NCBI RefSeq assembly: GCF_019649055.1
Contig: NW_026570248.1
Coordinates: 310,001-374,000, forward strand
Length of the DNA stretch: 64,000 bases
Reading direction: 5' to 3'
DNA from: Paramacrobiotus metropolitanus
Lineage: Eukaryota > Tardigrada > Eutardigrada > Parachela > Macrobiotidae
Positions 3,526 through 38,516 of this stretch are shown one piece after another; position 1 is the stretch's first letter, and each line of letters opens with the position of its first letter. Under the pieces are notes generated by a model. The model saw only the letters and a list, made by a program, of their open reading frames with translations. It ran no database searches and was not told where the DNA came from. A program made the position numbers and the translations under genes.

Positions 3526-6500
3526 ATGACGGATGCGTTGGCAACAAATCTGACGGCAACAACTATCAGCACAATTGCCGTACAAACAGGACGTACACGG
3601 ATTGTGCTTGCTGTGCTGAAGGTAAACTCTTTTTCAAACTGGCATTGCTATCTGTAAACAAATTTACTGTCCGTGAAATCAAAGCCAGATCATGATCTAT
3701 GAGAAAAATTACTATATATAGTTCTCATGGTTATACTAGTCATTAAAATGCATAAAACTGATAAACGTCTGCCGGTAATTATAACAGCAGAACTAGAATT
3801 TTAACTTTTATCATTTATAAAACCATGCAAGGACGTTTCTTTCAAACTGCAAATTTTCCATTGCTCGCTAGATTAATAAAGCCAGTAGTTATGTAAAGCA
3901 ACTGTATAACATTTACCTACATATTTACGCTGTTATCAGTTCCTTCAAACCTATTCGGCTAGTTCAAACCTGGTGCATTCACAGGAAGAACCAAAAGAAA
4001 GTACTGTATTTTCATCCATACACTATTACGCAGTACATAAAAAACCGCCGATTTCAATGGTACCGCAATCGACTGGATTGAGAATAGTTTTTTCGCTGCT
4101 CTCCAATTCGAGAGTAGTGCTACTGGCACAATTTAGAAAAAAACTATCGACGTTAGTGCTCGACATTTTCTTCACCCTTGGCAAGTGTCCAACCATTAAG
4201 CAGGGCACTGCCGACAAGCAGCAACACCAAACTTACTCTACAGTAATTATGCCGTCTGGAAAACGGGAAGCATAAGCCCCAACGCAGAATTTTTGTTGTA
4301 AAAAATCTTTGTCATTAATTTTGCAAAAGTATTATTATAGACCACCTAGATATTAATCATATTGAGTCACCGCCACCATAGGCACATGATACCAAATCAA
4401 TCTTATTTGCCCACTCTTTATATGTGCGTTATGACCAATACAAATTAATTGTCTTTCATAAATATTTACCGTCCAGCTTTGATAACTTCTGCTTTGTCGT
4501 AGTACGTGCTATCGGTAAGACCACAGTTTCTCAATATAGAAAAATTATTACGATAAAACACAAGTATATTAAAACTTAAATTCGTTTGATATGAGCAGCA
4601 CAAGGATGAGTTACACCTGCGGGTTCAAGAAATGGAGCCGGGGATTGCCGACATTGGAAAATCGCTGGAGGAGGCAATATCTTTGGCCAAAGAGCATAAC
4701 GAATGCTTGGCCAAACTTGCGGTACGTCTCATAGTAAACAAACCCAGCAAAGTTGATAATAAAGTTCACGATCAAGAGCATGGCAATATGTTTAGGGCAG
4801 TTTATAGCCAAAGCTTATATTAGCGTAGAAGCATGCAAAAGGTATTACGTACTCGTACTTCAAATTTAATTGGATAAGTCCTTTAATTAAGATTCGCAAA
4901 TTATTATGAGTGTGCAAATTATTATGAGTGCAAATTATTAAGAGGTCATGAGTTAAAAAGATACTTCATTTTTTTAAAAATGATAATTTTCTTGCAAATG
5001 CTTATTCTTTTAGTTTAATTTTAACCAACTGTTTCGTTATGTTCGTAAAACTAATGACTAGGATATGTACAGTACAACACATTCCTCTTTGTCCAGCTGG
5101 ACAAAGAGGAATGTGCAAGAAGCTGCATTTGCAAAATAATAGATACTGCAGTATCTATTATTTGCAAATGCAGCTTCTTGCTACTGTGAGGATATTTTCT
5201 CATTATGCATATTGATCACAGGGAACAAATAAGAACAAAATTAAAGCAACTTATCACTCTGACGACTGCACGCGCTTCTAATTAATTAATTGTAAGTTCT
5301 ACAGACTTCTTTAAGTTAGTTCTTAAAAAGGTATCCATCCTGTTTGCGGGCAAAATCACTCGCTCACGGTTATAAAGATCCCTAAATAACCATCTGACTT
5401 CCATGTGCTCACATGTACCGACCCAGTTGGAGCCGTATGATTAATGTTTTCGATTGTAAATGTAAACAAAAGATGGCTGAAGAGCAGTATTATTTGAAAA
5501 TTGTATATCCTATTGATATCGCTAGCACCCTGCAGTACAGAATTTTTTAAAATGGGCCCTTTTAGTCTGTTAGCAAGGCGTAGCTCAGTCACGGAATGGT
5601 AAAATAATTTAACATGATAAAGATGCCGATTATTTCAAGTGCAATACTGACCACTTCACCCAAAGGTTTGTGGATGCAACACCCTTTCCCTATTTCGTGC
5701 TTTATGTTTGAAAGAATGTTGCCCTTTCCGCAGATGCGTATACGTAATCAATTATTCCTGTGCTAGACATACCATTAAGTACTTATATGTGTGACTGCTG
5801 ATCATGAGCGATACTTCTATCGCACTTATCATCAAACATTTCCGAATGGATTTTTATTTCTCAATAACTCATCTTTGCCAACCTTTTTATTGCCGTAAAA
5901 CTATCACCTTTTCTACACGCAACTTTTCTTGACGCATCTGGTCAAAAGAAAATTTTATGCGCCCTCATGCAGTGTTGTGATCGCGGCTGGTTGTGGGCGA
6001 AGCGGGTTTTCTTTTCGGTTTTTGACGGTTGGCAGATGTATTACTGTATGTTAACATGCGCCGTTTAATTGTTTTCAGCCGATAATTTGTCAGTAGCCAT
6101 GTGGTCAGCGTGTAATGCACCGTTTAAGTTTGTTGGATAAGGCGCGCGACATAATACAAATTTATGCAGACTGACAATAAAATCTTTTATTATAAAATTT
6201 TTTTTGCGACCAGGCTAAACAACCAAACGTGGAGGAATTGCTGGCTCAAGCGGATGACTTGATAATCACCCAACAACCCAAACGGGAAGTTTACGGCGCA
6301 ATGGCCGATAGTCTGGGTCAGGCTTGGCGTGATTTGAATGATCTTCTGGAATATCGGAGACTTCTTTTAGAACGAGCTATTGCGTTCCACCAGAAGGTTG
6401 AAGAGGTATGATGGCGAATTAATCAAACACTGTTTATTATTTAATCAAAGGCCGATAATGGTTACATGGGAACAAACGTTCCCATGTAACCACTATTCCC

Positions 6501-9500
6501 ACGTTCCCATGTACGTTCCCATTTCGTCACTAAATATGCAATGCTTCTCTTGTGTTGCCGGAACTGTCTTCTCACGTCCTATTTTTTAAACCAAAGTACT
6601 TACTGTAAACACCGCTACCATGGTTTTTTTAAAGGGTTTTCTTAAAGTTTCGTATTGCTTGCGTTGATTAGGAATTCTCAAGTCATTTCCGTTTTCTCAA
6701 ACCTGGTTATCAGGACATAGCTGCAAAGTGCAGATGCATATGCCCGAGTAGTTTTTCGAAAATTATACCCAGCGAAACATTGTAATTAATCATGTATTTT
6801 ATATCCTGATTTGTGAATGGATGGATGGCTACTGATTTTTCCATGTTGCACTTCGTGCAGTGAATCAATGTTTGCCTGCTTGATATAACTTAATTGAACG
6901 TACATATAGTACGCAAATACGAAAAATTAGTTGCAGAAGTTAACTTTGCGGTAGTGGTGACGTAAAATGCATTTCCTCAATGTTATTTCAGTCATAGTTG
7001 CAACATCCCAGGTAGGTAATACTCTGTATTATTACTTTCAGTGCAACCAAAAAATTACTGAAACTCAAAAAGAAATGGAGAAAGTTATGGATAGCTACAC
7101 CGGTAGCGCAAAAGATTGGCTACAGGAAAACACGATGATTCGTAAAGGTGAGTAACGACTGTTAATGAATGTAGTACGACATACAGGTGTCATTTCGCCT
7201 TTTTCTTTTCTTTCTTTAAATAGCCGGCACTGTATAAACTGTACTTCGATGTCTTTTCGGTTTCTTTGTGCTTCAAGTTACTAACTGGCAAAGTAAATCA
7301 TACCTTATAGTTTATAGAAAAGGTTGCGACAACGGTTAGCGCACATAGACGTTGACTATGTGAGTAATTAGGAAATAAAGGTTAATAAAATAAATAATAA
7401 TGGTATGTATACCGTTGTTTCCGGTACTCGACGTTTAATATCAAATGCCAAACAGCATTTAAACAATTGTTAAGAATAATTTCGTCGCTCGAAGGACCAG
7501 CTGTTCGCAAAACGCGCGGTCCACCTATGTAGTAACACGCATATATCTATATAGTATACAGAGTACAGTACATACAATACACAGTTCACGTCTACTGTAA
7601 ATGTTGCAGACATTTTGGAGTCGTCGATGCGGCTGCTTGGCGAAGCTCAAGCTCTGGTGGAGTTCATTAATGATTTACGGCGCATACCAGCCGCCGACTC
7701 GCGAGGTTACGACCATGCAACCACAGCTGCATGCCACATTGTAGAGGAATTGCTGGAAAAAGTACATGACCGGCGGAAACGATTGGAAGAACTGTGGCAG
7801 CGACGCCGGCAACAACTGTTATCGCACCAAAATTTCCTCTCATTACAGCAAAGCATGGAGAAATTACGGAAATTGTTTGAAATTCTCCTAGCGGCGGATA
7901 AAAAAAATTCACAACCATTGGAAGTAACCTTCCAGAATCCAAAACGATCTGGACAGCTCATCAACAACATGAAACCAGCGCCAAAGTAATGAAAATTTAT
8001 TAACTGCGGAAATTGAATGTTTATACAAACTTTACATTTTGCAGGAATGTTCAAATCTTAAATTTTGCAGTTTAAATGAATGTGAATGTTTTAAATTTTG
8101 CAGGAAATTTACGATAGCTCGTTACAACTGCGCCGCCTTCACGCACAAATTTCGCCTTGTCCACCGGAAGTGGATCGGGAATTTCAGCAACTTGTTGATC
8201 AAATTGAAAAAACTTATCTGCGCATTGACCGGCGCCGCTTTGTGTTGAGCCTTACCGTGGAATTTTATGAAAAATACCAGAGCACTCTGACGATAATTTC
8301 CCAGACGGATCAAGCGTTGAACCAAATGGATACACAGAAGGAGCAAATTAAGCCGCAAGATTTGGTGGCACGGCAGAAGGAACTGTTGGACAGCGCGAAA
8401 TTTGCTGCTGCTCCAGTTTTCCATGAGGGCCAAATGTTACTGGAGCGCGTAGAGACACTTGACGCCGGCGGAGTTGAGCACGCCCTACGTGATCTGCAAA
8501 ACGCATTAAATGCTCTGACCGCGAAATGTGCCGCTTTGCAAAGTTCGCTGGCCAAGAGAGGCGAGGTCTTTCGGAAATTTACGGAAATTTATACTTCGTT
8601 GTATGAATGGACAGTTCACGTGGTCGAAGTTTTGCTCAAGGTAAAAGAATGGATTATGTATCATACAATACTCCTATGAAAGAAAAACGAAAAATTAATC
8701 CTTCTGGAAACGATTAATTCGTTTCAGAATCGTCGATGTCCTATATGCAGGCAGTAATGTAGCAAATAAACCAGTAGGGTACAATTTCTGTCATTCGCTA
8801 AAACATTAACTTAACTAACTGAACGTATCTTTGGAACGTAAGTATGGTTTCTCCATAAAAACATTGAAATGAAAATGGAAAAAAATTCTTTATTGTTCTT
8901 CAGCGCATGTTTAAAAGTTGAAAACTTTCTCCTGAGTAAAATGTAGTAAAAGATTCGAGAAAATTTTGGAGGGTGTTCATAAATTTTCATAATAACGGCA
9001 ACGCCTACTGTACCGTACGGTAGGTAATTAGCCTAAAGTTAATTTTTGTACAATAATTAGCTCGTAATTGATGACACTCATATCACAGGTTTTTCTTAAA
9101 TTTTGCTGTAACAGCCTCTCTCGAATTGATTTCAGGCTCATCGAATTTTACCTCCATCTTTAAATGGTGCAAAGGATTTTCTGGATCTGCATGAACAATT
9201 ATACGACGAAATGAGGACACGTGATTCGGACTTTGAAGCGTTGATGACCCTGGTTGCTCAAATTACCAAACAGCCGGCTGGTCTTGATCCGGCTGAATTA
9301 AAGGAAGTCGCGGAGAAATCGGCCGAAATGAAAACCCGCTGGAGTGACCTAGAAAGCATGCTCAAATCCCGGCTGGATATCGTCTTGCCGTATGCAGAAT
9401 TCCAGAAGGTGGCATCTCGGGTTTCCGCTGAAGTGGATGTCTTGCGCAGCATATCCAATTTGTACAATGAAGATCCGTCCTCGGAACTGCACGCCAGCAA

Positions 9501-12500
9501 CTTCGAACACCGATTGACCATATTACACGATTTGATCAGCGCCTTACAACAAAAAGCCGGTGATTTCTTCACAACCACCCCCAAGGTTTGTTGTGACATA
9601 TATTGAGCTACTGCAATGAGTCATGTGCAAAAAGAAGCTGATTTGTTTTGTCACGCAGGCTCCTGCGGCACAAGTCGACGTCAGTCAAGCGGCGGCAGCC
9701 GTCAATTCCACTCTGGAGCGGTTGCAGGAAGATTTGAAGAATTTCGCTAACATTACGAAAGCTTCGCAGAGTATGCGTCAGAAACGAACAGTTTGGCGGG
9801 AAATTGTGGAAGAAGTCCATCAGACCATAACTTGGATCATCAAAACGGAGCGGGAAGCCTTCCAGGGACTGCAGCTGGGATATCTCGGTGCAAACCAGGA
9901 GGAAACGGATCAACTCCGATCCAAATTATCGGCTTTCGAGCCGACGCTTAATGTATGTACATTAATTCTACTGCGTTTCTGCTGTGCAAAAAATTTATCA
10001 GTTCATTGGGTTATTAGGAGGTTCGTAGCAAGGTGGATCGATTGGTCCAGACAGCCAAAGCCCCGCCTGTCGATGCCGAAACGGCTTCGGAAAGGGACAT
10101 GGTCGTTAATGACCTTACCAAAGCATACGAACGATTTGTCCAACGTATCGAAGAATACAAAGTTCTGCTCAAGATGGCCAGTGAATTTTATGGTCGTGTT
10201 AACGAGGTATTTGCCTTAACGATCTTTGCAGCCGCATGCTCGGCTGCTGTAGTTTTTCGGATGGTCCATGTAGAAAAACGAGATTTTGCCGTTTTGATTT
10301 CACAATCAGCTTACAATATGTACCGAGAAGTATTGTGCAGGATTAAATCGTTTTATGGTTTTCAGCTAGAAAAACTGATGTTTTCGTATGAGAATATGAT
10401 CAACACTTCGCTGCCGGGTGGTGTGGAAGCCACAGAACAGTTCATCCACCGCCACAGCGAACAGCGTGAACATATTACGCGGGTATACGAAGACGTCGTC
10501 CACATGGGCGATGTCATAATCAACAGGATCCGGCAAAATTATCCACAGTCCATTGATCTGGACACCTTCCACAAAAGTGTCAAGGACAAACGCGCCACGT
10601 GGGATCGGATCTGGAATCAACAAAATCTCCTGTTGCAGAACCACCTTAACGTAATGAAACTGCGGAAAGACGGCGAAGAAGTAATAAAACAATGAATCGT
10701 ATTACACTACCCAAAATCAAAAGTGTATCCGCACACTATAAAATGTTATTTTAGCTTCGCCAAAGAATCACTGATTTGACCGATCAACTTAATCGACGTA
10801 AAGAGGAAATGGGCGAAAGCTTGCAAGGAGCAAAAAGGATACAGGAAATTCAAACCAGTTTTACCCAAAGCGTTGAAGTACGGTAATAAATAATACCCCT
10901 TTTCAGCTGCCTTGATTTTATTACCATTTTAGACGATTTCGACACAAGTCAAAAATTATGTGTCGACTGTGACCACTTTCGTTTCTGCACCCCCGAGGCC
11001 GCTAAACAATTTCCCGATATCCGTCCAGCGAAAGACGAGGTGGAAAAATTGTGGTCTACATTCTACCGTGACGTGGGTGCCATGACAAAGAGGACAGAAC
11101 TAGCCGTAAACTTCTACGAAAAACTCGAGGAGGTTCGTAAAACGAGAAATCATGGACCACGTTGGTGTTTTGGCGGCAAGAATTGTGAGTGGTGCTTTGT
11201 TGTCTTGTAGGCGGAGCAATGGTACAAAGAAGCCACTCAGGCACTTGTGACAATCGGGCGGAAGACAACCGAGTGCAAAGGTCCGGAAGACGCTAACAAT
11301 GTTTTGAGTCAAATGGAACATTTTTTGGGTCCGGGGGAAAAGAGACAAGAAGAACGGGTCAAATCATTAATGGAAATTAGTCTGCAAGTTTTCGGTATGT
11401 GACTCGAGGTGTCGACGTAGAAGCAAGTTCAATTAACCGTTGTTATGAAAAATTAGCATCACAGCTGTTTAAATTTAAACAGGCCAAAAAGGTCCCAGTC
11501 GAGTGGAATATCTGATTAAGAAGAACCGCGATGTTATGGAGTCATTCTCAGTCATCAGTAATGAGCTCTTCAGTATAGCGGAGAATCTTCACTCAAAAAC
11601 TGTAAAGTTAACACGATCGAAGTCGAACGAAGAACTCGAAGCCGGCCAGCCGCCGACAAAGACACAAAAACTGGACGAGCACACCATTCCCGTTGTACAT
11701 GAGAAACCGGTAGCGGCTCCAGCTGTCCCCGTGGCTCAAAAAGCTCAGCTACAGCCGGCCAGATTTGAAGAGCAATTGCACCAGGTAGACGTGCCTGCTG
11801 GAAAACCAGCCGAATTTCGGTGCCGTGTGGTTGGCTTGCCGGTGCCGGTTGTCAGATGGTTCCGTGATGGGATGCCGATTTCCAATAATCCTGATTACCG
11901 AATCACCTTCGATTCACAAACCGGAGAATGTGCGCTAAAAATCGAGGAAACTTTCCCGGAGGATACGGGATTGTTTAGTTGTTCAGCGGAGAACTCCGGT
12001 GGTTTAGCGGTTTCCGAAGCGCGCCTGAATGTTCTGGACGAAGAAATGCCGACTGCTGAAATGACGCCCCCGGTGTTCTTAAAGACACCGCAGGATGCCA
12101 CCGCCGTTGAGGGATCCGGTTTGCAGTTCGAATGTCAGGTGATCGGCAACCCTCGGCCGACCGTGACCTGGTACAAAAACGGTATAGCTATTGTGCCTGG
12201 AAAAACAAAGTTACGGGTCTTACCACCCAACGAAGAAGGAACCACACAACTGATTATCCCCGCAGCCAGTGTTGAAGATCAGGGCGTGTACGAATGTAAA
12301 GCTTTGAATCCACGAGGTGTTGCCACGTGCTCCATTACGTTTACGGCTCCTAGTAAGTTTGTATTTGTAGAAACAGCATGCTTTGTTTTTGCAAGCTCCG
12401 TTTTGTATCAAGCAGATTAAAATTTTTATGTTGGCTATTTTTATTTGTTTTAGCGGAAAGCGGCGAGCAGTCTCCTTTCTTTACCAAACTGCTGACTAAT

Positions 12501-15500
12501 CAGATCGGTGAACTGGGCGAGCTGGTCAAGCTGGAATGTCACGTTAGCGGCGTGCCGGCTCCGGATATTGAATGGTTACAAAACGGCGCTGTGTTGCACG
12601 ATAGCCGAAATCGTGTAATAAAATTCGACGGCAAAATCGCAACCTGTGTTATCTTTGAATATTCACCTCCGAATGCCGGGACGTATGTATGTAAAGCTAG
12701 AAATAAATTAGGCGAAGCAGTTACCACTTGCATTGTGGATGCTCAGCTCCCATCGACGCCGGTTGTTCCTCGTACACCGGAACATACCCCTGAAAGGGCA
12801 GACCTTCCGGAGGTCAAACCGGAGTTCCAAATGCCGCTTTTGGCGCAAACGGAAACGCAGCCCGGACAACAGGTGCGCTTAGAAGCAATAATCAAATCCC
12901 AACCGGAGGCAACTGTGACTTGGACGAAAAACAACAATGTCGTTATTGTTAATGCTAATACCACAGTGGGAAAGGAAGCCATCCCTTCTCAACCATTCAC
13001 TCATCGGCATTTTATCCTGATAGACAAAGTCACAGCTTCAGATGTGGGCCCATATGCATGTGTGGCAAAGAATTCAGCTGGCGAATCACGATCTCACACT
13101 GTCGTTCTCTTGCCTCCGTCACCACCCCAAATTCCTGAAGCGGCGCCTCCTCCACCACAGAAGACCAGTCAGGTGACGCTGATACCGTCATTTCCGCAAA
13201 TCCTTCCGGAAAGTCTGGAATTCAGCGAAGGGCAACTCATTAAACTGGAAACGACAGTAATCTCGCAGCCGGCGGCCGAGGTGCAGTGGTTCAAGAATGG
13301 AGTGCTACTTACTCCGAGTGCTCAGCTGGTGGTGGGCAGAGAAAAACTGCAACAAAATCCAGAAACTGACCGTCTTTTCATCGTTATCAACAGCCCGACG
13401 GTAGACGATCAAGGTGAATATGTTTGTTTGGCGCGGAATAGTGCTGGTGAAGCGAAAGCGCAGTGCACCGTGTCCGTGAAAGAGAAACCAAAAGGACCGG
13501 AAGTGCCACCGAAACCGTCCGTCCTCCCTTTCAAACCGGAATTCGCGCGGCCCCTACCAAACCATGTTGAGGTTTCTGACACTGAACCACTTCGACTTGA
13601 AGCAATAATCGAAGCGCAGCCGGAATCCGCCGTGCAGTGGTACCGAAACGGAAACGTTGTTGTGGCTGACGTGGACATTTCGCTAGGAAAGGAACCACTG
13701 AGCACTAATCCACAAGTCGACCGGCATTATCTGATAATATCCAATCCGCTACCAGTTCATTCTGGACAGTACGTGTGTGTGGCAAAAAATCCCGAGGGCG
13801 AAACAAAAACCACCTGCAACGTGAAAATCCACACAAAAGTACCGCCGCCAGTGCCGCCTAAACCGCCCAAGCCGGAATTTAGAAAAAACTTGCCACAAAA
13901 CGTGGATGTCCAGCCGGGTAACCCTCTACGTCTGGAAGCAATCGTGTCCAGCGTAGGAGAGCCGCAAGTGCAATGGAGAAAAAATGGTAATGTGGTCCTG
14001 GCCAGTGTCGATATTTTGATGGGAGAAGAGCCAGCCAAAGTCAGCACTTTTCATCATGATTTGACCCAGCCGAAAGAGAGCCGCTGCTTTCTGGAAATCA
14101 AGAACCCCAAACCGGAACATTCGGGAGAATATGTATGCACGGCCAAGAATGACGAGGGGGAGACCACGACAAGATGCGTTGTGGTGGTCAACGAAGCCGA
14201 TGTAGCTTCCGTAGCACGGACGGAGACGCACGTTAAACCCGCTCCACCAACTCTTCCTAAACCACTCCACGACGCTACTGTAACGGAAACTACTGTCCAG
14301 AACATGCCACCCGGCGATGAGGGCTACTATAAAAATACAACTGTTACGAGAATCGAGGAGACCAACGTTGTTCGATACGAAGGTGCGCCGCCCGATATGG
14401 AAGCTCCGAGGTTCACTGAGTTGTCGGTTGACCATACGGTAGAAGAAGGTCATTCTCTGCAACTAAAATGCAGCGTATCAGGTGGGTCTTGATCTTGAGA
14501 ATTTTCAGTAGTGCGTGAAAAATTCTGTTATTTTTGTGCGAACACGACCAACACTGTCTGCAGGAACTACACCCTTGGAAATTAAATGGTTCAAAGACGA
14601 TGTTGAAATTCCCAAGCATGCGGATTATCTGACTCGATATAATCAAGCTACCGGCGAATGCGTATTGGAGATTCCGGAGGTTTTTGCAGAAGATGCCGGT
14701 GTTTTTATGATCCAGGCGGTTAACCAGGCCGGTATCGGAAAGTGCTACTGCAATCTTAAGGTACTAGGAAAGTGCACTCGCTTTTTGCGGGCACTGCAAG
14801 ACCGAAGCGTAGCAGGACTATGTACAGAGTGATTGGCACCCCTTTTTCTGTAGGCAATCCTCCTCGATTACTTAGTGCTCTAATCCCGGTTGGTAGAATT
14901 TGTAGTACAGTGACAAGTGAAATCTCGGCCTCTGGCCCCCGGTACGCATTTACGTAAAATTTTGCAGATAAGTGAATGTTTCGAATACATGTTTTGAAAT
15001 TACAAAAAATCTTAATTTCTTCAGCTCTTGTGGAATAATTTATGCCGGTTCATGCAGAGCTATGGGAGGTCACCACCACCACAATATGTACATATGCAAA
15101 GTAGTCAATGGTAGAATTATCTGCTGAATACGGTGTAATGCCCTCATGGACGCTTTTGTAGCGTTCTATTGCCATTTTTACCTAAAGGGAAAAGCAATCA
15201 GTAATCTTTTGATCATATCGGCGAGATGACCACCGACCAATGCATACGGTTAACGTGTATATTTGCGCATCCGGGCTGCAAACATCACCATGCATATTTG
15301 CCTTTCGCGGTGCCGCGTTGGTGACCGACCCACAGACACCATGAATTACATTTGGCTTGAGTATTAAGTACAAGATCTATACTACGCGCGGCGCCCCATA
15401 GTTTTGAGATCTCTATAACCATAAAACTTCTGGAAAAACGGACAACGCCATTAGATCCGGGATAGTTCAGAAGTGGCCGGCATGTGTTTTTTTTTATGAA

Positions 15501-27500: not shown

Positions 27501-30500
27501 GATGGACAACCACTGCAGGCCAGCCATCGCTTCAAAACCACTCATGATTTTGGTTATGTCGCTTTACATATCGTTGGAGCCACCGCAGAAGATACCGGAC
27601 GCTACACCGTAGTTGCTCATAATCAGCTGGGTCGTATTGACCAATCTGCTGACCTACTTGTGCGCGGTAAGTGCCTCTGTTCTTAAACAAACCACGAGTC
27701 AATTGCAATCTGTTTTCATTGCCCAGTGTTGCTTACCACTCATACTATTCTAGGCAAGAAAACAATATCTTTCGAAACCCAAAACCCGGAAGGTCTGCAC
27801 AAAATCCAACAACTGGAGGCATGGCGCAGTTCCACCCATCGCGAACCTATTGCGCAAGATGCTCCGTCACTTGCACCGCGTTTTGTTCAGCCACTCCGCA
27901 CGCAGCGATCGGATTTATCTGAAGGCCAGCAAGCACATTTTGAGGCCCGACTGGAGAATGTCGACTCCAACACCCGAGTGGAGTGGTTCCATAACGGCCG
28001 ACCGGTGCCTCAAGGCAGCCGCTACCGATTCATTAATGACTTTGGTTACGTGGCCTTGACCATTGGCGATCTGCGTGCGGATGATGCCGGCGAGTATGTA
28101 GTACGTGCGTACAACGATAAAGGCGAGGACGTTACCGCAGCGCGAATTACAGTGTTGGGTAAGCACGTCTAGCACACACCGGCGTGCATAGTGATTAGTT
28201 TTCCATCAAATTTTTCCGTTACAGCTAAAAAATCCTTACTCACGGATACACTACATGCGAACAGTCTGGGCAAAATTCAGCAATTGGAAAGCTACGATGC
28301 CGCTCCTCTGAAGGGGCCCGATGAACGACCCAACATCCAGCGACCAGTTTTCACGGTGCCATTTCGCAACCTCGAACTAACCGAAGGTGACAAGCTCCAC
28401 CTGGAAAGTCGATTGATCCCAGTTGGATGCAAAGTGGAATGGTTCCATAATGAACGACCTATTGATGTCGGCTCGCGATTCGGCGTGACGAACGATTTCG
28501 GATTCGTGGCACTGGACATCGCCGATATTCGGCCGGAAGACGCCGGGACATACACTTGCCGTGCCACCAACGAGCTGGGCCAGGCCGTCGCCACGTGCAG
28601 CGTGCTTGTGAGGGGTACGTACATGCCCACTGCCTTTCAGGTTCTGCAGAGGAATGATGTGCGAGTGTAGTGCGACGGAATAATACTCCCACGTGCACCT
28701 TGCACAGCATCAGAGAGCATATTATTACTATGCGTGTTTTACCGAATTAACCGTTCTAGCTCTAACCCCCGTTATCCTCATCGTTAAAATCTCTCGATGT
28801 TTCCTCTTGTACACCCACTCTGTCCCCCGTCCGGCGTGCATCCACTAACATGCATCCATACATTCATCCCACATCTGTTTCTCTTTGCGAACGATAGTGT
28901 TTCGATTACGGATACCTGCTGGCACTTGCATCTTCTCTGTCATGTTTCGCCATTCTCATTTGTCCCGTGTCTATTCTATGGAATGTATACCTTTTTTCAC
29001 GTCATTGCATTAAAGCTACCAGCATATACATCATCTCCTTGTGCAAGTGCTAGCAGAAATCCAATTGAAATCGAAATCACTTTAAGCGTACGCGACTGCC
29101 TTTACGTTATTCTTCTGTACTAAACCTCCAAAGCGCATCGTTCATTGACTTCCGTAATCCGAATTCACGATCTACAAGGTCGGATGCAGAATGCACCCGG
29201 AAAAAGACACACTGATTTGTTGCACAATAGTGTAGCGAGTGCAGTAATCACTACCACCCGGCATTCGTTCGGCATTCGGCCAGACGGATCGTAAAAATGA
29301 TTGTCGAAGATTTTATTAATGTAAGCAAAAGAGCTGACACAAAATGCACCAAAGTATGAATGCGTCGCTTACCAGGTTAGACATGATACCGCATTTCCAC
29401 TATGCCTTTGTGTGTTCTCATACATATTCCCCTTGCGCATTCTTTGCTATATTATTTACGACACATAAAGGGACACAATCCTCTACGGCTGTTATAGGGA
29501 ATCGTGCGTAAAATGTAAACAGTGAACGTTTGCGAATTGACCATGAACTTTTAATACGTACAATGTCAAACAGCGGAATCGGTTGGATAACCGACTTGTT
29601 ATGCGCTCCATCGGATAGCGACTGTTTTTCAGGCACGAAGTCAATGTATTTGGAAACTGCACATCCGGAAGCCTTACAGAAATTGCAAGCTCTTGAATCT
29701 TATGCTCCTGAGAAACGTGAGGAAGCCGAGACTAAGCACGGCAAACCAGTGTTTACGATTCCTCTACAGGCAAACGTCGAAATCGGAGAAGGGGAACCGT
29801 TGCGCCTGCACTGCCAGCTGGTTCCTGTTGGTGATCCTACTCTTCAGGTAAGCTGGTAAAACCAAAAAAATTTACTCGTACCTTTACGGTGAATAATTCA
29901 AAAAAGTACGCCAATGGGCTGGTTCGTTTACACTAACTGAACGTCATATGAACTTCTTGAAACTATTCATTTTTCCAAACAGTACATATTATTAGTACCG
30001 GTAACTGCGTTATGCACCCTTACAGAATTTGTTTATATCTATATTATCATATTTTCCTTACGTTACATACTATTTACTTTTGCATTTGTTTTATTATTAT
30101 GATTGTTATAAATTATTTCGCTTATACTTTATGTAGCGCTTGTATTGTAATATAAACAACTGTGAGTTTTTACTTGTAACGGAGATTGCACGCATACTTA
30201 TTACGGTGTTGTATTACAGATTGCATGGTTTTTCAATGGGGTGCCCTTGAGGACCGGTTCGCGTTTCCTGCATGTAAACGAGTTTGGTCATATTGGACTG
30301 GATCTTTCTGCTGCGTATCCGGAAGATTCTGGCTTGTACACCGTTCGCGCTACGAATGCCGCTGGAGAAGCCGTAACCAGCACCAGTGTCCGCTGCTTGA
30401 GCAAAGCCTCACTCCTTACCGGCACACTACACCCGGAAAGTCTGCCTCGTATACAGCAACTAGAAGAACATCCTCCGCTTAAACCAGAACAAATGGAGCT

Positions 30501-33500
30501 TGAATATGGACCTCCTCGTTTTGTTACGACGCTGCAGAATGTGGACAATTCCAAGGAACACTCGAGTGCTCATTTCGAATGCCGACTAGAGCCGAGTCGT
30601 GATCCAACAATGAAAGTAGAATGGTTTCATAATGGACTTCCTCTGCCGGCCGGTAATCCGATTTTTTTTACATTCCAATACGAATCATCAAAATGTTATA
30701 TTTTCAGCTAATCGAAACCGGCTAACGCAGGACTTTGGTTTTGTCGCACTGGATATTAATCAGCTTACCGAAGCAGACTCCGGCGTTTATATGGCAAGAG
30801 CATTCAATAAACACGGCGAAGCGTTCACCAGTGCTCGATTAATCTGCCAAGGTATTTTAAAAATAAATTGAAACGCAGCAATAAACTGCAGCGCTACTAA
30901 AACAGTTTTCCGCGTATTAGGGTCTAAAGGTGTCCAGTCGGCCGCACAGACTTCCGACATGGCTTTGCAACGCATTGCCGTACTGGAAGATGCTAACCGT
31001 GCAACATTTACCAGTGAATCCAAAATGTTCCAACCGGAAGAGGGTGGTATGGCACCCCGGTTCACATCTACACCGAAGGATTTACTGTTAAAGGAAAATG
31101 ATATGGCTCATATCCACTGTAATGTCACTCCAACCAACGATTCCAGTCTGGAAATTATGTGGTTCAGAAATGGACAACCGCTCCATGCCAGTATGCGACT
31201 GACACATCGCCCACAAGAGAAACTATAAAATGACCGTCAATTAAATATTTCAGGTTCAAGAATAAAAACGCTAAACGATTTTGGATTTGTTGTACTGGAG
31301 ATCAGTGGTATTCAGACGGAGGACTCTGGACAGTATGTGTGCATGGCTCGCAACAGATATGGCCAAGATAGGGTATCGTGCACCATCCAGTGCAGCGGTA
31401 AGACTAAAACTTATTCCTACATTTTACAAAACCTTGTAAAACCTTTTTGTAAATTAAGACCTGCAACTAAAAACTATTTTGGCTATAGGTCAGCATGGTG
31501 TCCAGCTGGCGACTTTGCACCCTGAAAGTCTCCCGCGTATCCAGCAATTAGAGGAACTTCCGCCTCTTGCTGCCCCTGAAGCTGAACTTGATTTCGGTCC
31601 TCCACGATTTGTCACGACATTGAACAATGTGGATGATGCCGTCGAAGGCGCAACGGCACACTTTGAATGCCGCTTGGAGCCCAGCCGTGATCCAACGATG
31701 AAAGTAGACTGGTTCCTCAACGGTCGTCCGCTGCCGGCCGGTAAATTAGTGTAGTGGCTTTGGTTTTTAGAAAATATCTGTAATTTTTTTGGTTATCTTG
31801 TGCAGCCAATCGCAATAGATTGACACAAGACTTTGGGTTCGTTGCGCTGGATATCAACCAAGTTACTGAAGACGATTCCGGGGTCTATATGGCTCGTGCT
31901 TATAACAAACACGGCGAAGCTTTTACCAGTTCCCGACTCACATGCAGAGGTACACAGATGCTACGTATTCCGTTCAAGCTGATGTTTGTCGAACATTTTT
32001 GAAAACAGATTTAGGAGATCTGTACCAGATGGGAATTTTTTTTTGCATTTACCGGGATTTTTCGAAAACAGCCACTTATTTACAGGCACTAAAGGGGTGT
32101 ATTCAGCCGCGCAAACGTCGGAGATGGCTCTTCAACGGATCGCCCAGTTGGAAGACGCCAACCGTGCAACTTTCACCAGCGAATCCAAATTGTACCAACC
32201 GGATGAGTTTGGTCAAGCCCCTCGATTCACCACAACGCCCAAGGATCTGTCGCTGAAGGAAGGCGACGTTGCTCATGTTCACTGCAATGTGACACCGACA
32301 AATGATTCGACATTGGAAATAATGTGGTTTAAAAACGGTCAACCCTTGCATGCTAGTACGTAGTGCGCACCGCTGTAAGTATTTGTGAACTGTTCTAGCA
32401 AATTTTACATGTCCCAGGTTCACGGATGAAAACCCTTAGCGATTTTGGATTTATTGTTTTGGAAATTAACGGCATACAAACAGAAGATTCCGGACAGTAC
32501 GTCTGCATTGCGCGGAATAAATTTGGAGAAGACCGGGTGACCTTTACGATTCAGTGCAGCGGTAAGGCCGGTATTCACATCCAAATCGAATATTCAACCT
32601 AATCATGTTTAACGCGACTCCATTGTAAACAGGAAAGCGTGGCGTCATGATGGATACTCAACATCCCGAAAGTTTAGAGAAGATCCGCCGACTGGAAGAG
32701 CCGGAAGGTCGTGATGTTCCACAAGTTCCTGACAAGCCCAAAGTGCAGCCAAAAATCCTTAATCCCCTTCAGCCACAAGCTGTTTTGGAAGGCTCACCTG
32801 TCCATTTCGAAACTCGCATCACGCCGACAGATGACGTGGACATGGTGATCGAATGGTTCATTAACGGCCGTCCACTACGAGCCGGACACCGTGTTCGCAC
32901 CATTAACGATTTTGGCTACATTGCTTTGGACATTCTTTATGTCCGCCGCGAAGATTTTGGAAAGGTTACGTGCCGGGTGCATAACAGCTTGGGGGTGGAT
33001 GAAGCATCAACTACTTTGTCACCATTAGGTAAATACCCGTAGCAATTACGTCAAAATGCCCAAACGTTAACAGCCATAAGCACATGGGCTACACATGGGC
33101 TGGTTGAATTATTAAAATGATTATACGACCAAGGTTTTGACTTTTCATCCAGGCACTGGACCACAGCCAGCGCCACAGTTTACCACTCCACTGCAGAATA
33201 TTTCCAATGTTCAAGAAGGCGAGAACATCCATTTGCAAGCAACACTGGAACCAGCCAAGGATCCCAAACTGTCAGTAGAGTGGTACTGGAACGGAAAGCC
33301 GATTATTCATGGTATCGCTTCATTATTATTCATCACTTCTATAATGCGCGATTAATTACTGATTCGTATTCTTATTTAAGGCTCGCGAGTAAAAACCATC
33401 CATGATTTCGGTTTCGTCGTACTGGAAATCTCCCCGGTTTACGGAGAAGATTCCGGAACGTACACCGCAGTAGCGCGGAACGAAGCGGGAGAGGCTGTGA

Positions 33501-36500
33501 CCAGCTCCAGTGTCACTGTGGAAAGCAAGAAAGGTCTAATTTTGGATTCACAATTGCCCAGCGACATGCGTGACAGTTCCATCCAAAAGATTCAGCAGAT
33601 CGAAAGTGCATCAATGCACACGTATATCCCGGAAACGGGACCAGTCGGACCCACTCAACCGCCACGTTTCGTTTCTTCCGCGCATGATGTTGACGCCAAA
33701 GAGGGCGGAATGGCGCATTTTGAACTGCGCTTTGAGCCGGCCAATGACAACACGGTGACCATCGAGTGGTTCCATAACGGTCGACCAGTGGATGTAGGCT
33801 CTCGGTTCCGGACCATCAATGACTTCGGATTCATTATTCTGGAAATTAAGGACCTTCAGGCGCGAGATGCCGGTGTGTACACCTGTGTTGCTCGCAATCC
33901 TTTGGGCGAAGCCCGCTCCGAAGTCAATCTACGAGTGCAAACATTCAAGAGCGTGGTGCTGGAGTCGTCACAGCCGGCGAGTTTGCAAAAAGTGCAGGAG
34001 CTGGAACAGCAGATGCAGAGTGCACACATTCCGGCGTTTGTGCCGGAACAGCCGGATGTACCACCGCGATTTATTAGCCAGCTGGATCGACAGGTAGAAC
34101 TGCAAGAGGGCGACATGGCTCATTTCGAAGCGAAAATCGAACCGACCAACGCGTTGGTCGAGTGGTACCGCAATGGGCGACCCATCGTAACAGGTATTTT
34201 TTCAGCGGCATTATCCTGCATGTAGCATTAGCTAGTATTCGGCTTTAGTAAAATTATTTTGTCATCAAAAATATTACAATTCGAAATTTAACGTGAAAAG
34301 CACTTCTTCTCTGTAGGTTCTCGAATCCGAAGTATCAATGATTTTGGATTTGTGGTTCTGGAGATCAACGGCGTGACCGCTGAGGACAGCGGACAATACA
34401 CATGCCGCGCTAAAACATCGGTCGGAGCAGCGGAAACCAGCACCGATCTCAAGGTCCAGAGCAAGAAATCTGTCATTCTGGAATCACAAATGCCGGGAGG
34501 TGTTAACATGGCCAAACTCCGCGAACTGGAAACTCCTAATGCTCCACTACCGGAAGAGAAACCAGTTGTTCGAATGCCCCCGAAATTCATAACGCAGTTG
34601 AATCCTCACGTGCCAGGAGAAGAAGGCGACTGCATTCATATTGATTGTCGGGTGGAACCGATGGATTGTCAGATCGAGTGGTATTTCAACGGCCATCCGC
34701 TAAGATCTGGTACGCAACCCAGTATATATTATTAATCTGCCAATAAATTATTAATCAGTCAATAGTGCAAAGGAGGCGCCCAGTAGTAATTAGCTTTTTT
34801 GTTGCATTCGTACAATAAGAACGGTTTTGTGGAAATGATACTCTTAGCTTGCTTGCTCTTGGTACTGAAGCGCTTAATAACCTATGCAACGCTGAATTTT
34901 ACATAACAATCTGATACAGTAGAAAGGCAGCGTTTAAGTCGCTTAATCAACAACTTATTTGCGCATTAAATGCTAGTTTTTTTCGATAGGGATACTTTCT
35001 CACATTTTCCTCTCTCATTTCTCGCTCATTTTACAGGTCACCGGTTTAAGCTGATAAACGACTTCGGCTACGTTTCGTTGGACATTTTATCCGTGTATGC
35101 CGAAGACAGCGGTGAATATGTCGCGCGCGCCGTTAACGAACTGGGTCAGGATATCACGCGTTGTACTATAACCATTACGGCGAAAGAAAACGTAGTGACG
35201 CGCACGCAGTTGCCAGCCGGAATGGAAAAGGGAGTGGAACGACTCGAAGAAATTGAGCGGGAATTATTAACGAAGTAACCGTGAATTTGGCTGTACTGTT
35301 GGTAATATATTTTAACAAAATTTGTTGCAGGGGACCAATACCGTACGAAGTTGCTGATCAGTCGAAGCAGCGATCCAAACCGGAATTCACAGTTAAGCCG
35401 CGACCAGTAACTATTGAAGAGGGCGAAACCGCCAAGTTTGAGTGCAAGGTTGCCGGATACCCACGGCCAAGGGTGTCGTGGATGCTCAACGGACAGCTAA
35501 TTATTTCGGTACGTCTTTTTGTGCAATTTCCATTCGCATTCTAAATTGACGCCGCTTTTACAGGGCTCATCAAGATTCAAAATTAGTTTCGACGGTTATA
35601 TGAATGTTTTGGAAATTCCCAAAGCGCGCCAGTACGATGGCGGAGAGATCGCGGTCATCGCACAAAATCCCGAGGGAACAGCGCAGTGTGTCACCACACT
35701 GACCATTACGACAAAGAGCGATTACCGGTCTGTGCTGAAACAAAGCACTTCCGCTCGCAGCAAAGTCCCCGTACCTGATGCCTTCCAGTCGCATTTAGAG
35801 AAATCGCAGACTGACCAGCAGCAGGGTACATTCTACCAAGTGGATCTGCAGTCGGTCCGTCGGCCGGGTGGAGCGCCGCCTCAGCAACCCCAGCGACAAA
35901 CCTCGACGGACATAACCATTGATTTCAAGCAACAGCAGCAAACCCAATGGCAGCAGCAACAGCCTCCGAAGCCGCCGACACCCCAAACTCCAACTACACC
36001 CCAAGTCGCCCCTAAACCATTTGGACAGTTCAATCAGAATGTGAATATCACTTCGAACCAAACTTCCCAGTTTGTTCCGCCATCAACTCCGCCGGTTGCT
36101 CCTAAGCCTCAGCAACCGCCACCGCAATTTACCTCACAGACCTCGACAACTCAAAACTTCCAGCAACAACAACAAATTAACCTCCAGCAACGGCCACTGG
36201 CTCAACCGGCTCCAGTGCAACAAAATCAGTTTGTCAGTCAGAGCACGCAGCAACAGCAGCAACAGCAGACCACGCAACAACAGCAATTCAATCAACAAAT
36301 CACAGTACAACAACAGCAACAACCGCCTGTTGTTCCACCAAAGCAGCCGGCGACGCCTCCGCCCAAAACAGCCGGGCCACCGTGGATGCGTCAGGGGTCC
36401 GTCAAACAGGAAACCGAACAGCCGGCATGGGTGAAGAAACAGCAAACGCAACAGCAAACTAGTACTGTTGCTGCCCAGTCACTGCCGCCCCGTGCAATTC

Positions 36501-38516
36501 AAACCACGTCAGTTTCTAATCAGCACCAGCATGGCCAAATGGTGGAAAGCATCCAGCAGGAAGATATTGATATTACTCGAAAGAGGTACTTACTGATAAT
36601 CGAATAACATGTTCCTTTATTTATATATTCAGGCAAAAGCGGTTTATCAGAATCCGAACTTTTTTAGCCATAAGATATAATATGTCAAAACAAAGGAAAC
36701 TATGCATAAGCGGTATTTGCAGATACGATGAAAGTCAACAGCGTCCACCGCAGCGCCCAATCCCGACCGCCTCAGAAGACAAAGAAATGTCCGCATCCGA
36801 GATGGAGTACACGCAGCGCTTGCAAAAAGGAAACCTAACGGAAATCCGCTACGTGCAGCAGCGCGAGCGCTCGGAAAGCTCACGCCGGAGCGTGCAGAAG
36901 ATGGTCGCACCTGGACAAGGCCCGCCACCGGCTGATATGCAAGCACCAAAGTTCACCCAACGCTTGGAGCCGTGTCGCGTGTCGGAAGGCAAATCCGGTC
37001 ACTTCACTTGCAAATTTATCGGTAAACCGGTACCAAGAATAGAATGGTACAGAGAAAATTTCCAAATTAATCCGTCGCAAGATTTCCAAATCACCACAAC
37101 CAACGATACCTCGACATTATTTATGCCAGAAGTCTATCTGGAAGACAGCGGAAACTTCACGGTGAAGGCGCTGAATGAAGGTGGCATGTCGCAGAGCACT
37201 GCAAATTTGATTGTTGAAGGTAATTTATTCCATTTACTAGATTGCTAGATTGTTTTTATGACGTTTCGTCAATGCCTGTAATTTTGCAGAAGCATATTCC
37301 GGTGAATCAAGTGGTCCGACTCCTCCCAGCTTCAGTGACACCATTCATGACACGAAGGTTAAACTCAGCGACGTGGTTCGTTTGGAAGTTCGTGTCCACG
37401 GCTCAGCACCCATCAGTATCAGCTGGTTCAAGAATGGTCAGAAGCTGCAGCCTTCACCTCGTCTGAAGCACGTCAGGGATAATGATCTCCATCAGCTACT
37501 GATTCTGGATGCCTTAGCGGAAGATTCAGGGTGGTACGATTGTGTGGCGGTTAATGAAGGCGGTGAAGCCAGGTGTTCAGCCCAAGTGACCGTTGAAGGT
37601 AAGGTATTCAGTAATTTTCGTTGTTTGCTATGTTGACGCAGTTATGGGCTAAGTACAATTTTTATTATGTAGTTGTAGCAGGAGCGGCACCGCCACGGCC
37701 GCAACCACAGCAGCAGCAGCAAGTTTTTAACCCCGTTCCCACGCCTCCAAAGCCGACATCAGCCAATCCAGCGGCTCCTCAAGTGGTACAATCACCGGAA
37801 AATGTCACCGTCTACGAAGGCGAATCCGCAACTTTCCGTGCCAGTATTGTTGGAACACCTCGTAAGCATAAGGCTTTTATTTATTTTGAAAGCGAATTCC
37901 TTAGTAAAACGGAAAAACACAGAAAAAAATTAACGATTTATGCAAGAACGGTTATGTTGAAAAATATCTTTATAATAGTAAAACTACAGTTAATTTTGTT
38001 AACTGTCGTATAATAACAGTTGGATATGTTTGGATTTTTTTGTTTAGAGCCGGAAGTGAGATGGTTTAAAGGTCACAACGTGATAAAGAACTCCAAGTAC
38101 TTCCGCACTTTTGTATCCGGCAATGTCTGCACACTTGTGATAACCGAGGCCTTCCATGAAGATGAAGGCGAATATCGATGTGTGGCCCGAAGTCCAGCCG
38201 GTGAAACCACATGCTCTGCGTTCCTTAAAGTACTCGGTGAGCATCGGTGAAGCGTGACGGCTGTCACGGGGGAGTGTGTACGTTGGTGACGGGAATCTAT
38301 TTTATGTCGTTGTGATTGTTACTGCTAATAATTGTGGTTTGTCGGTCTCTGTTCGTTTCAAAATTTGAAGCTGTTTCTACACTATTGTCTTATCCGGTAT
38401 TTCATTGAACAGGCGATGCATCGAGCAGATTTACCACCGTAACATACCAAAGTGCAACCGCAAGTTCCCAGCTAACCAGCACGATGACCATGCAACTTCG
38501 TGGTACTAACAGTTAG
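3526..38516 (+). CDS. Giant CCDC141-like spectrin region fused to kettin/sallimus-type Ig chain
   Basis: About 54 exons chain with matching splice phases from ATG 3526 to TAG 38514-38516, giving about 6,450-6,470 residues. Order: a short N-terminal strand, spectrin-like helices (residues ~30-1,100), Ig1-Ig14 (to ~3,040), tandem Ig15-Ig34 with kettin-style linkers containing IQQLE-type motifs, a Pro/Gln-rich stretch (~5,770-6,050), Ig35-Ig37, and a 33-residue Ser/Thr-rich tail. Kettin/sallimus spans from the Z-disc along actin in invertebrate muscle, which is the inferred job. I see no PEVK segment, fibronectin III domain or kinase. Kettin in flies has about 35 Ig domains (from memory), so the Ig part is near normal length; the helical N-terminus is the oddity. 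One exon (10933-11132) has a frame question, described separately. Exon coordinates are given in the regional entries. Confidence 0.85.
5078..5115. repeat. Perfect 38-bp palindrome
   Basis: Read outwards from the centre at 5096/5097, every base pairs over 19 positions with no loop (core GTCCAGCTGGAC). It directly abuts a second, longer palindrome. Located in an intron. Confidence 0.9.
5115..5181. repeat. Near-perfect 67-bp palindrome
   Basis: The centre is CTGCAG at about 5146-5151. Arms of 33-34 nt pair fully except for one extra A on the left arm. Transcribed, it would form a long hairpin. It shares its boundary base with the preceding palindrome, so the two make a 104-bp double fold-back block. 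Confidence 0.88.
6459..6492. repeat. Inverted repeat, 15-bp arms
   Basis: Arms of the form TGGTTACATGGGAAC and its complement flank a 4-nt loop. Partial direct copies of the right arm (ACGTTCCCATGTAC) follow to about 6522. It lies in an intron of the giant gene. Confidence 0.8.
15285..15365. repeat. Dispersed relative of the 110-bp repeat
   Basis: The stretch around GTGACCGACCCACAGACACC and the following ATGAATTACATTTGGCTTGA matches the second half of the 110-bp unit repeated at 17641-18060 in the same intron. The match starts weakly near 15285 and is near-identical from about 15325 to 15362. Confidence 0.75.
15770..16089. repeat. Degenerate ~50-bp tandem repeats
   Basis: Alternating units carry GAGTGAGTGA-type and GTGACCGAGCTACC-type segments with CACTGACCA cores, at a spacing of about 50 bp. 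They look like decayed or ancestral relatives of the 51-bp array that starts immediately to the right. The part around 15940-16080 contains rearranged or inverted pieces of the same words. Confidence 0.65.
16090..17310. repeat. 51-bp minisatellite, about 23 units
   Basis: The unit is typified by GACCGAGCTACCAATACTGT, then CCAGTGCATAGATCCCGTTA, then GGTAGATGGGT, and recurs every 51 bp. Three variants can be told apart by the segment before GACCGAG: A (TAGATGGGT), B (GATCTAGT) and C (GAACGCGT). They recur in the order C-B-A-A-A-A more than once, a higher-order arrangement. As 51 is 17 codons, the minus strand stays open in long frames with a 17-residue period. These frames are repeat by-products. 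Confidence 0.9.
17641..18060. repeat. 110-bp tandem repeat, four copies
   Basis: CAGCGTGCATATGTGCATCA recurs at 17651, 17761, 17871 and (with one change) 17981, an exact 110-bp period. Each unit contains two GCGCATATG/GTGCATATG-type words and a GGTGACCGACGCACAGACAC block. The last copy is truncated just before the exon at 18218. Confidence 0.92.
19011..20395 (+). other. 1.4-kb intron of the giant gene
   Basis: AT-rich, with no coding frame I can support and no clear repeat. It joins phase 1 exons 18218-19010 and 20396-20973. A similar plain intron lies at 22890-23849, where a short direct duplication of ACAATCAGAACACCTTTT occurs around 23375-23415. Confidence 0.5.
23850..35508 (+). other. 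Kettin-type tandem Ig15-Ig34 with conserved linkers
   Basis: Exons: 23850-24152, 24230-24637, 24720-25223, 25293-25405, 25465-25891, 25967-26250, 26408-26984, 27271-27666, 27754-28158, 28225-28614, 29633-29847, 30220-30652, 30708-30851, 30921-31190, 31254-31397, 31489-31740, 31806-31949, 32086-32355, 32418-32561, 32633-33028, 33153-33311, 33381-34193, 34317-34709, 35037-35274, 35331-35508. Each Ig has an F(E/T)(A/C)R or similar strand B, VEWFHNG(R/Q)P, (N/H)DFG(F/Y)V(A/V)L(D/E)I and a DxGxY motif. Domains are separated by linkers of about 35 residues with the pattern K(S/K)xLxxxxxPESLxxIQQLE. This repeated Ig-plus-linker layout is the hallmark of kettin, which binds along thin filaments. Most introns are phase 1. 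Introns longer than 300 bp (28615-29632, 29848-30219, 34710-35036) hold nothing recognisable. Confidence 0.9.
30400..32561 (+). repeat. Duplicated two-Ig module inside the kettin region
   Basis: Segment A (30400-31397) and segment B (31489-32561) encode the same two Ig domains and linkers in the same order. The last three exons of each copy have identical lengths: 144, 270 and 144 nt (30708-30851, 30921-31190, 31254-31397 against 31806-31949, 32086-32355, 32418-32561). Shared peptides include ANRNRLTQDFGFVALDIN and HFECRLEPSRDPTMKV. The DNA has diverged more than the protein, so the duplication is not very recent. Confidence 0.9.
35564..38516 (+). other. C-terminal end of the giant gene: Pro/Gln-rich segment, Ig35-Ig37, tail
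   Basis: Exons: 35564-36585, 36723-37219, 37290-37598, 37682-37861, 38048-38236, 38413-38516. The first exon ends Ig34 and then encodes roughly 270 residues rich in Gln and Pro (runs of up to five Gln, PPKPPTPQTP-like stretches), probably disordered. Three I-set domains follow: Ig35 (~36940-37219), Ig36 (~37330-37598) and Ig37 (37770-37861 plus 38048-38236), with a second short poly-Gln linker at about 37700. The last exon adds a Ser/Thr-rich tail ending in LRGTNS. Confidence 0.85.

Follow-up and report, generated by a model that had tools for sequence, protein, structure and literature searches.

The window analyzed here is a stretch of 64,000 nucleotides from the tardigrade Paramacrobiotus metropolitanus (contig NW_026570248.1, positions 310,001 to 374,000). 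Its plus strand carries, at positions 3526-38516, what appears to be one gene in which a spectrin-type N-terminus is joined to a chain of 37 Ig domains. This is a true, well-placed gene of a known kind and not an artefact. We consider it likely to be of the zormin-kettin type, corresponding to the 5' half of sallimus, with a rod orthologous to CCDC141 and zormin, zormin-like Igs, a kettin array, and three C-terminal Igs, and with the joined state being ancestral. The original prediction, made from the letters of this DNA, held that a CCDC141-like protein and a kettin/titin-type Ig chain form one gene here; the observation is confirmed, and its interpretation is partly supported overall.

The locus bears on an open question in muscle evolution, namely how a single giant titin gene is related to the titin genes that are split in insects and worms, and why CCDC141 adjoins TTN. 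With the CCDC141-kettin gene of the window and a second locus on contig C101, the scenario of a single ancestral gene becomes testable. The two loci also suggest an origin of CCDC141 as the head of the titin filament rather than as a partner that was recruited later.

Gene model

The database model of the gene, P0004, is annotated as 'LOW QUALITY PROTEIN: titin-like [Paramacrobiotus metropolitanus]' and comprises 6494 aa. It was the sole match among 4074 candidates, with 96% identity to the N-terminal part used in the search. A tblastn comparison of P0004 with the window gave coverage from 3526 to 38513, followed by a stop codon at 38514-38516, so that the single gene was predicted with both of its coordinates exact. 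P0004 is itself a predicted model flagged as low quality and derives from the same assembly, so that the bases cannot be verified independently with it. The label is probably due to two frame breaks, both of which fall inside the CCDC141-like part of the gene and near homopolymer runs, and which may represent either assembly errors or a real defect. The features of the gene and of the related loci are collected in Table 1.

Table 1. Features of the window gene and of related loci. Positions are those of the window unless a contig is named.
Feature	Position	Strand	Source or remark
Exon 1: start codon and N-terminal motif ATTISTIAVQTGRTRIVLAVLK	3526..3621	+	hand model, P0004
Exons 2-12: CCDC141-like spectrin-repeat module	4599..11132	+	Pfam Spectrin, DUF7799, Spectrin_7
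A8 run, frame break nearby inside exon 5	7900..7907	+	bridged in P0004
C5 run, frame break nearby inside exon 12	10990..10994	+	bridged in P0004
Exon 13: penultimate CCDC141-like helices (EQWYKEATQALVTIGRKTTECKG...)	11211..11394	+
Exon 14, physical join: last CCDC141-like helices, then Ig1-Ig2	11483..12352	+	end from dynamic programme
Exons 15-16: zormin-like part, Ig3-Ig8	12454..14760	+
3,457-base intron, phase 0, between zormin-like and later parts	14761..18217	+	dynamic programme and P0004
Ig9-Ig17, irregular linkers	18218..25490	+	3' limit approximate
Kettin-type array, Ig18-Ig34	25681..35717	+	limits approximate
Q/P-rich stretch, then C-terminal Ig35-37	35718..38229	+
Last exon and stop	38412..38516	+	P0004
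Window gene on its contig	C28 313.5-348.5 kb	+
Obscurin/UNC-89-like gene: RhoGEF (138.3-139.2 kb), Igs, at least 28 fn3, kinase, Ig, second kinase	C28 138-170.6 kb	+
TRIO: spectrin repeats and two RhoGEFs	C28 about 465-488 kb	+	~117 kb downstream of window gene
Ig matches, at least 11 listed	C101 137 to 119 kb	minus
P/E/V/T/K-rich open frames of 1226 and 1881 residues	C101 119-109 kb	minus
Frames of 1257 and 1994 residues, 52-53% P+E+V+K	C101 94-84 kb	minus
Frame with 62% P+E+V+K	C101 72-70 kb	minus
Frame in which such PEVK-rich sequence passes into Ig domains	C101 70.1-68.5 kb	minus
Ig/fn3 array	C101 down to 52 kb	minus	matches listed
Kinase in one 1050-residue frame with Igs	C101 51.5-50.7 kb	minus

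The N-terminal exons were placed by hand at GT/AG sites, with 14 starts (the first being the ATG at 3526) and 13 ends. A second model was computed with a dynamic programme that used splice sites and codon usage, with the same window as its training set. An earlier run, in which introns were penalized only lightly, was discarded for its doubtful mini-exons. The dynamic programme recovers every hand-placed N-terminal exon but exon 12, which is missed because the frame is broken there. Its other disagreements with P0004 are that some small kettin exons are dropped and that the 3' end overruns into an esterase gene, and P0004 was therefore taken for the 3' part.

Two junctions connect the parts of the gene. 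In exon 14, the last CCDC141-like helices and Ig1-Ig2 share one frame and therefore join there without any inference of splicing. Further downstream, exon 16 is spliced to exon 17 in phase 0 in the dynamic-programme model (donor 14760, acceptor 18218, site scores 5.0 and 4.9). The same junction is present in P0004, and the zormin-like and kettin parts are thus joined in phase in both predicted models. The in-phase run from the CCDC141-like head into the kettin array, which had been proposed from the letters, is borne out by our own model and P0004 alike. The intron between these exons is the longest in the dynamic-programme model, and tandem-repeat arrays lie within it at window 15759-18061 (units of ~50/153 and 110 bases).

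Identity of the N-terminal head

A 1208-aa N-terminal query gave three matches among 7998 scored candidates. The leading match was P0001, a CCDC141-like protein (isoform X3) from the snail Pomacea canaliculata, with an E value of 1.3e-149 over 94% of the query; apart from it, only an Ig/fn3 protein and a netrin receptor were matched. The CCDC141 module and first Ig of P0001 are colinear with the window protein at 29% identity. The snail protein differs in that it is a 1376-aa isoform which ends in the third Ig and lacks the N-terminal motif. That motif (ATTISTIAVQTGRTRIVLAVLK in the window gene) recurs in P0005 and at the C101 locus, the second in this tardigrade with a CCDC141-like module. 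P0005 is an unnamed protein of 2858 aa in which the motif reads STTTISTIAVQSGSTRIIIAIL and seven Igs are present, and we infer it to be an arthropod zormin.

Profile searches were carried out in addition to the single-sequence query. A three-row profile, in which one row is P0001 itself and another is a provisional human CCDC141 sequence, gave 44 matches among 7998 scored candidates. After P0001, the ranking was P0005 (E 2e-211, 100% coverage), TRIO (9e-62), an Ig/fn3 protein (6e-33), and the best spectrin beta (5e-22). When the tardigrade row was removed from the profile, the tardigrade N-terminus scored 539 bits, as compared to 160 bits for TRIO and 85 bits for the best spectrin. The order of family, TRIO, and spectrin was the same in four of four profile runs. 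A phmmer comparison of the tardigrade N-terminus with 46 sequences gave 469 bits for the snail protein, 213 for P0005, 37 for TRIO, and 21 for the best spectrin, and neither a reversed nor a shuffled N-terminus (one of each) matched any of the 46 sequences up to an E value of 10. The margin is narrow when the snail protein alone is the query, with P0005 at 263 bits and TRIO within 42 bits of it at 221.5.

Vertebrate CCDC141 was absent from the returns of both the 1208-aa query and the three-row profile (7998 scored candidates each), and also from the search that gave P0004, whose limits on protein size would leave it out. The provisional human CCDC141 sequence gives 78-383 bits in comparisons with the family. 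These comparisons serve as a lead only, since its letters do not come from a retrieved record. A PDB search with the head gave one match, to alpha-spectrin at an E value of 0.078, and the Pfam assignments of the head (Table 1) do not include the name CCDC141. Judged by its sequence, the N-terminus is CCDC141-like and closer to members of the CCDC141-like family, represented by the snail protein and P0005, than to spectrin or TRIO. The original prediction of a CCDC141-like head in place of a generic spectrin holds up, with the snail CCDC141-like protein as the best independent match and TRIO and spectrin well below it.

Identity of the Ig chain

The 37 Igs of P0004 were counted with a profile built from the Igs of the window gene and its relatives. 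Igs 1-17 are irregularly spaced, whereas the gaps within Ig18-34 are 39-49 residues long in 15 of 16 cases, the remaining gap being 9 residues. Kettin has an Ig array with regular linkers of ~35-40 residues. By the spacing of its Igs, Ig18-34 is taken to be a kettin-type array. The predicted kettin-type Ig chain is therefore found in the regular array of Ig18-34 and does not extend to Igs 1-17. Among the matches listed, no fn3, RhoGEF, or kinase domain lies at 3526-38516, and no fn3 domain lies just downstream. One-to-one matching of the Igs of P0005 and P0001 to those of P0004 was mostly non-colinear and was left out of the argument.

A second CCDC141-like locus

When the N-terminus was compared with the entire genome, 16 matches were obtained, of which 14 are the window exons and two lie on C101. 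The minus strand of C101 was modeled from 147.0 to 137.0 kb and encodes 914-944 residues free of stops, which begin with MEQELQVIQ...STISVIAAQVGRTRIVVAVL and have an Ig at their C-terminal end. A three-species profile aligned with this model in one colinear stretch (profile 21-571 to model 14-564, 171 bits). When the C101 model was the query, the scores were 138 bits for P0004, 76 for P0005, 72 for the provisional human sequence, and 25.5 for P0001, and neither TRIO nor spectrin was matched. Of 10 C101 introns, eight share their phase with a window intron and differ from it in position by no more than one alignment column; the last of these matches fall where the alignment is weak, as kinship is undetected beyond profile position 571. 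Other scores place TRIO level with this locus or above it. The total profile score was 172 bits for C101 and 174.5 bits for TRIO, the latter being made up of five stretches that overlap and individually reach no more than 53 bits, and with the snail protein as query TRIO reached 221.5 bits versus 28.3 bits for C101.

Downstream of this model, Ig matches give way to long PEVK-rich frames, after which an Ig/fn3 array leads up to a kinase (Table 1). The C101 sequence was read directly at 147.0-137.0, 119-109, 94-84, and 72-68.5 kb. By these sequence features, C101 from 143.4 to 49 kb appears to be a candidate titin with a divergent CCDC141 head, and an apparently new one. The chances seem evenly balanced that the genome holds two CCDC141-headed giant muscle genes from one duplicated ancestor, namely the CCDC141-kettin gene of the window and a complete titin on C101 (~143.4 to 49 kb, minus strand). 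In that reading, the C101 titin would carry in one gene a CCDC141 module at the head, then I-band Igs and a giant PEVK spring, and after these an Ig/fn3 array of the A-band, a kinase, and a last set of Igs. If true, a protostome would keep the single-gene layout of CCDC141 plus full titin that is hypothetical for ancient animals in Hanashima 2025 (PMC12198301), and the split of insect titin into Sls and projectin would be secondary.

Comparison with known systems

Several systems resemble the tardigrade gene. Human CCDC141 and TTN lie in the same orientation, and the vertebrate neighbors follow the block order found in the window. The vertebrates differ in having two genes, and in the window gene it is kettin rather than titin that comes after the CCDC141 block. 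At the C101 locus, what comes after the head is of the titin type, with PEVK-rich frames, Ig/fn3 domains, and a kinase. Fly sls carries a PEVK/fn3 tail. The Drosophila zormin-kettin arrangement is unlike the tardigrade one in that a single 6494-aa model spans both parts in the tardigrade, with no listed fn3 match in or just after the gene. The two are alike in that zormin, with spectrin repeats and Igs, has sls, which codes for kettin, as its immediate 3' neighbor and has been called an Sls isoform (PMC12198301; PMC5521747).

In Hanashima 2025 (PMC12198301), human TTN is preceded by SESTD1 and CCDC141, this row of genes is regarded as the counterpart of CG15822-zormin-sls in fly, and zormin is put forward as the CCDC141 ortholog. 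The paper also describes connectitin, in which the parts are joined in one gene in cnidarians and placozoans, cites transcripts that span neighboring genes in human and fly, and offers three scenarios for the split between I-band and A-band, with the single ancestral gene termed hypothetical. Connectitin and the tardigrade gene both combine a module of the CCDC141 type with an Ig chain of the titin type. The tardigrade model differs in having no SEC14 head and no listed RhoGEF or kinase match, and the obscurin-like and TRIO genes are separate from it on the same contig.

The original prediction named no described kettin with such an N-terminus. That none has been described is not supported, as zormin is in print as the smallest Sls isoform (PMC5521747) and has been put forward as the CCDC141 ortholog (PMC12198301). 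The central idea and the closest gene have thus been published, and within the literature covered the locus in the tardigrade adds a new case to them. The main text of Hanashima 2025 (PMC12198301) contains no word beginning with 'tardigrad', and the literature covered, outside which most subscription papers lie, points to no description of the tardigrade locus.

Alternative explanations

Gene predictors can merge neighbors, and the window gene could consist of two transcription units, a zormin/CCDC141 unit at about 3526-14.8 kb and a kettin unit from ~18.2 kb. The separate zormin and kettin products of flies (PMC5521747) fit this arrangement, as does the 3,457-base intron, which is the longest of the model and contains tandem-repeat arrays. 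Moreover, the frame of exon 16 reads through to a stop at 14830, and exon 17 has an in-frame ATG shortly past its acceptor. However, the splice sites on both sides are in phase and of ordinary strength, and they were picked by our own model and by P0004, and we regard two merged units as unlikely. The two frame breaks, both within the CCDC141-like part, could also suggest that this part is a decaying relic or an artefact of assembly. Both breaks lie near homopolymer runs, the remaining exons are open, and residues of the family are kept, which leaves such an explanation barely credible.

A single gene of the zormin-kettin type may also have arisen by a new fusion of neighboring CCDC141/zormin and kettin genes in the tardigrade lineage. 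The genes are apart in vertebrates, and fly zormin and sls are treated as separate neighbors (PMC12198301). The joined gene of cnidarians and placozoans and the spanning transcripts cited for human and fly (PMC12198301) argue against a recent origin, as does the fact that the same genome has a further CCDC141-like module, on C101, at a locus of the titin type, and we think a fusion of this kind very improbable. Between the two origins that had been put forward for the joined gene, an ancestral gene is accordingly favored over a local fusion by the published joined gene, by the position of fly zormin beside sls, and by the module on C101. The origin of the N-terminus as a generic spectrin or TRIO-type rod, and not as CCDC141, was also considered. 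The Pfam names are those of spectrin repeats and of DUF7799, TRIO is the next best family, and the snail query brings TRIO near to P0005. Against this, the tardigrade N-terminus far outscores TRIO and spectrin with a profile from which it was left out, the snail match is colinear over 94%, and the N-terminal motif recurs in P0005 and on C101. Apart from the TRIO results just noted, the scores speak for rejecting such an origin, to which we give practically no credence.

Proposed layout and function

The ancestral zormin-kettin reading leads to a layout that would begin with an N-terminal spectrin-repeat rod, putatively orthologous to CCDC141/zormin. Behind the rod would come the zormin-like Igs, then the kettin array, in which the linkers measure ~40 residues, and finally three C-terminal Igs. 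By comparison with insects, the kettin array would lie along actin near the Z-disc; both actin and alpha-actinin are bound by kettin (PMC5660141). From vertebrates and insects, the spectrin-type head may be expected at the Z-disc end, where it could dock other cytoskeletal partners. The Z-disc end is uncertain for the head because CCDC141 binds A-band titin, as well as nesprin-1 (PMC13031707, a review), and because fly zormin sits at the M-line as well as the Z-disc (PMC5521747). By analogy with flies, shorter isoforms with only the zormin or only the kettin part are possible. The joined state would have given rise to the separate neighbors CCDC141 and TTN in vertebrates and would have been kept as one gene in the tardigrade lineage, with a second copy of the head apparently kept on C101 as part of a putative full titin.

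Genomic neighborhood

Two further genes of the same superfamily lie on the contig of the window (Table 1). The gene at C28 138-170.6 kb lies ~143 kb upstream of the window gene and is presumably obscurin/UNC-89-like, a name given from the order of its domains. Its fn3 matches, at least 28, are many for the obscurin/UNC-89 family, and a T/E/K-rich stretch lies inside it. The second RhoGEF of the TRIO gene has TRIO (6d8z) as its best PDB match, with an E value of 4.5e-39, and its SEC14 part was assigned by eye, as the Pfam search did not find it. A spectrin match at C28:470 kb, which was at first taken for SESTD1, belongs to this TRIO gene. In a genome of 170 Mb, three members of one superfamily, namely the obscurin-like gene, the window gene, and TRIO, fall within 350 kb of each other, which is unlikely to be due to chance, although the grouping was noticed post hoc. 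The cluster fits the published proposal that the family arose by duplication on one chromosome.

No SEC14/SESTD1 gene was seen beside the window gene in searches that are insensitive, and both models start at the CCDC141 motif. A search of the genome with PF13716 (SEC14) gave two matches, both on other contigs. As candidates for SESTD1 these were rejected, since by eye their open frames are NF1-like (C48) and RhoGAP-like (C15). The PF13716 search is insensitive because the TRIO locus was missed as well. Genome searches with PF24915 and PF25101 gave zero matches, but PF25101 missed the window's own copy and the control genomes gave no match either, so that absence is not implied.

Other genes were observed nearby. 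On C11, an Ig/fn3 array with a kinase fragment at 54-88 kb (minus strand) is probably twitchin/projectin, and no match of the CCDC141 query is listed there. Directly upstream of the window gene lies a gene with the Pfam domain DUF3522 (window 284-1631, plus strand), which we take to be TMEM8-like. A carboxylesterase-like gene is next downstream of the kettin end (39945-42433, plus strand), followed by a KTI12-like ATPase (42965-44146, minus strand). At 61963-63829 on the plus strand, L27, PDZ, and SH3 domains are found in what is probably a MAGUK gene, with a guanylate-kinase-like frame seen by eye just past the window. Also beyond the window, a dystroglycan-like open frame was seen by eye on the minus strand (L012 7933-8922).
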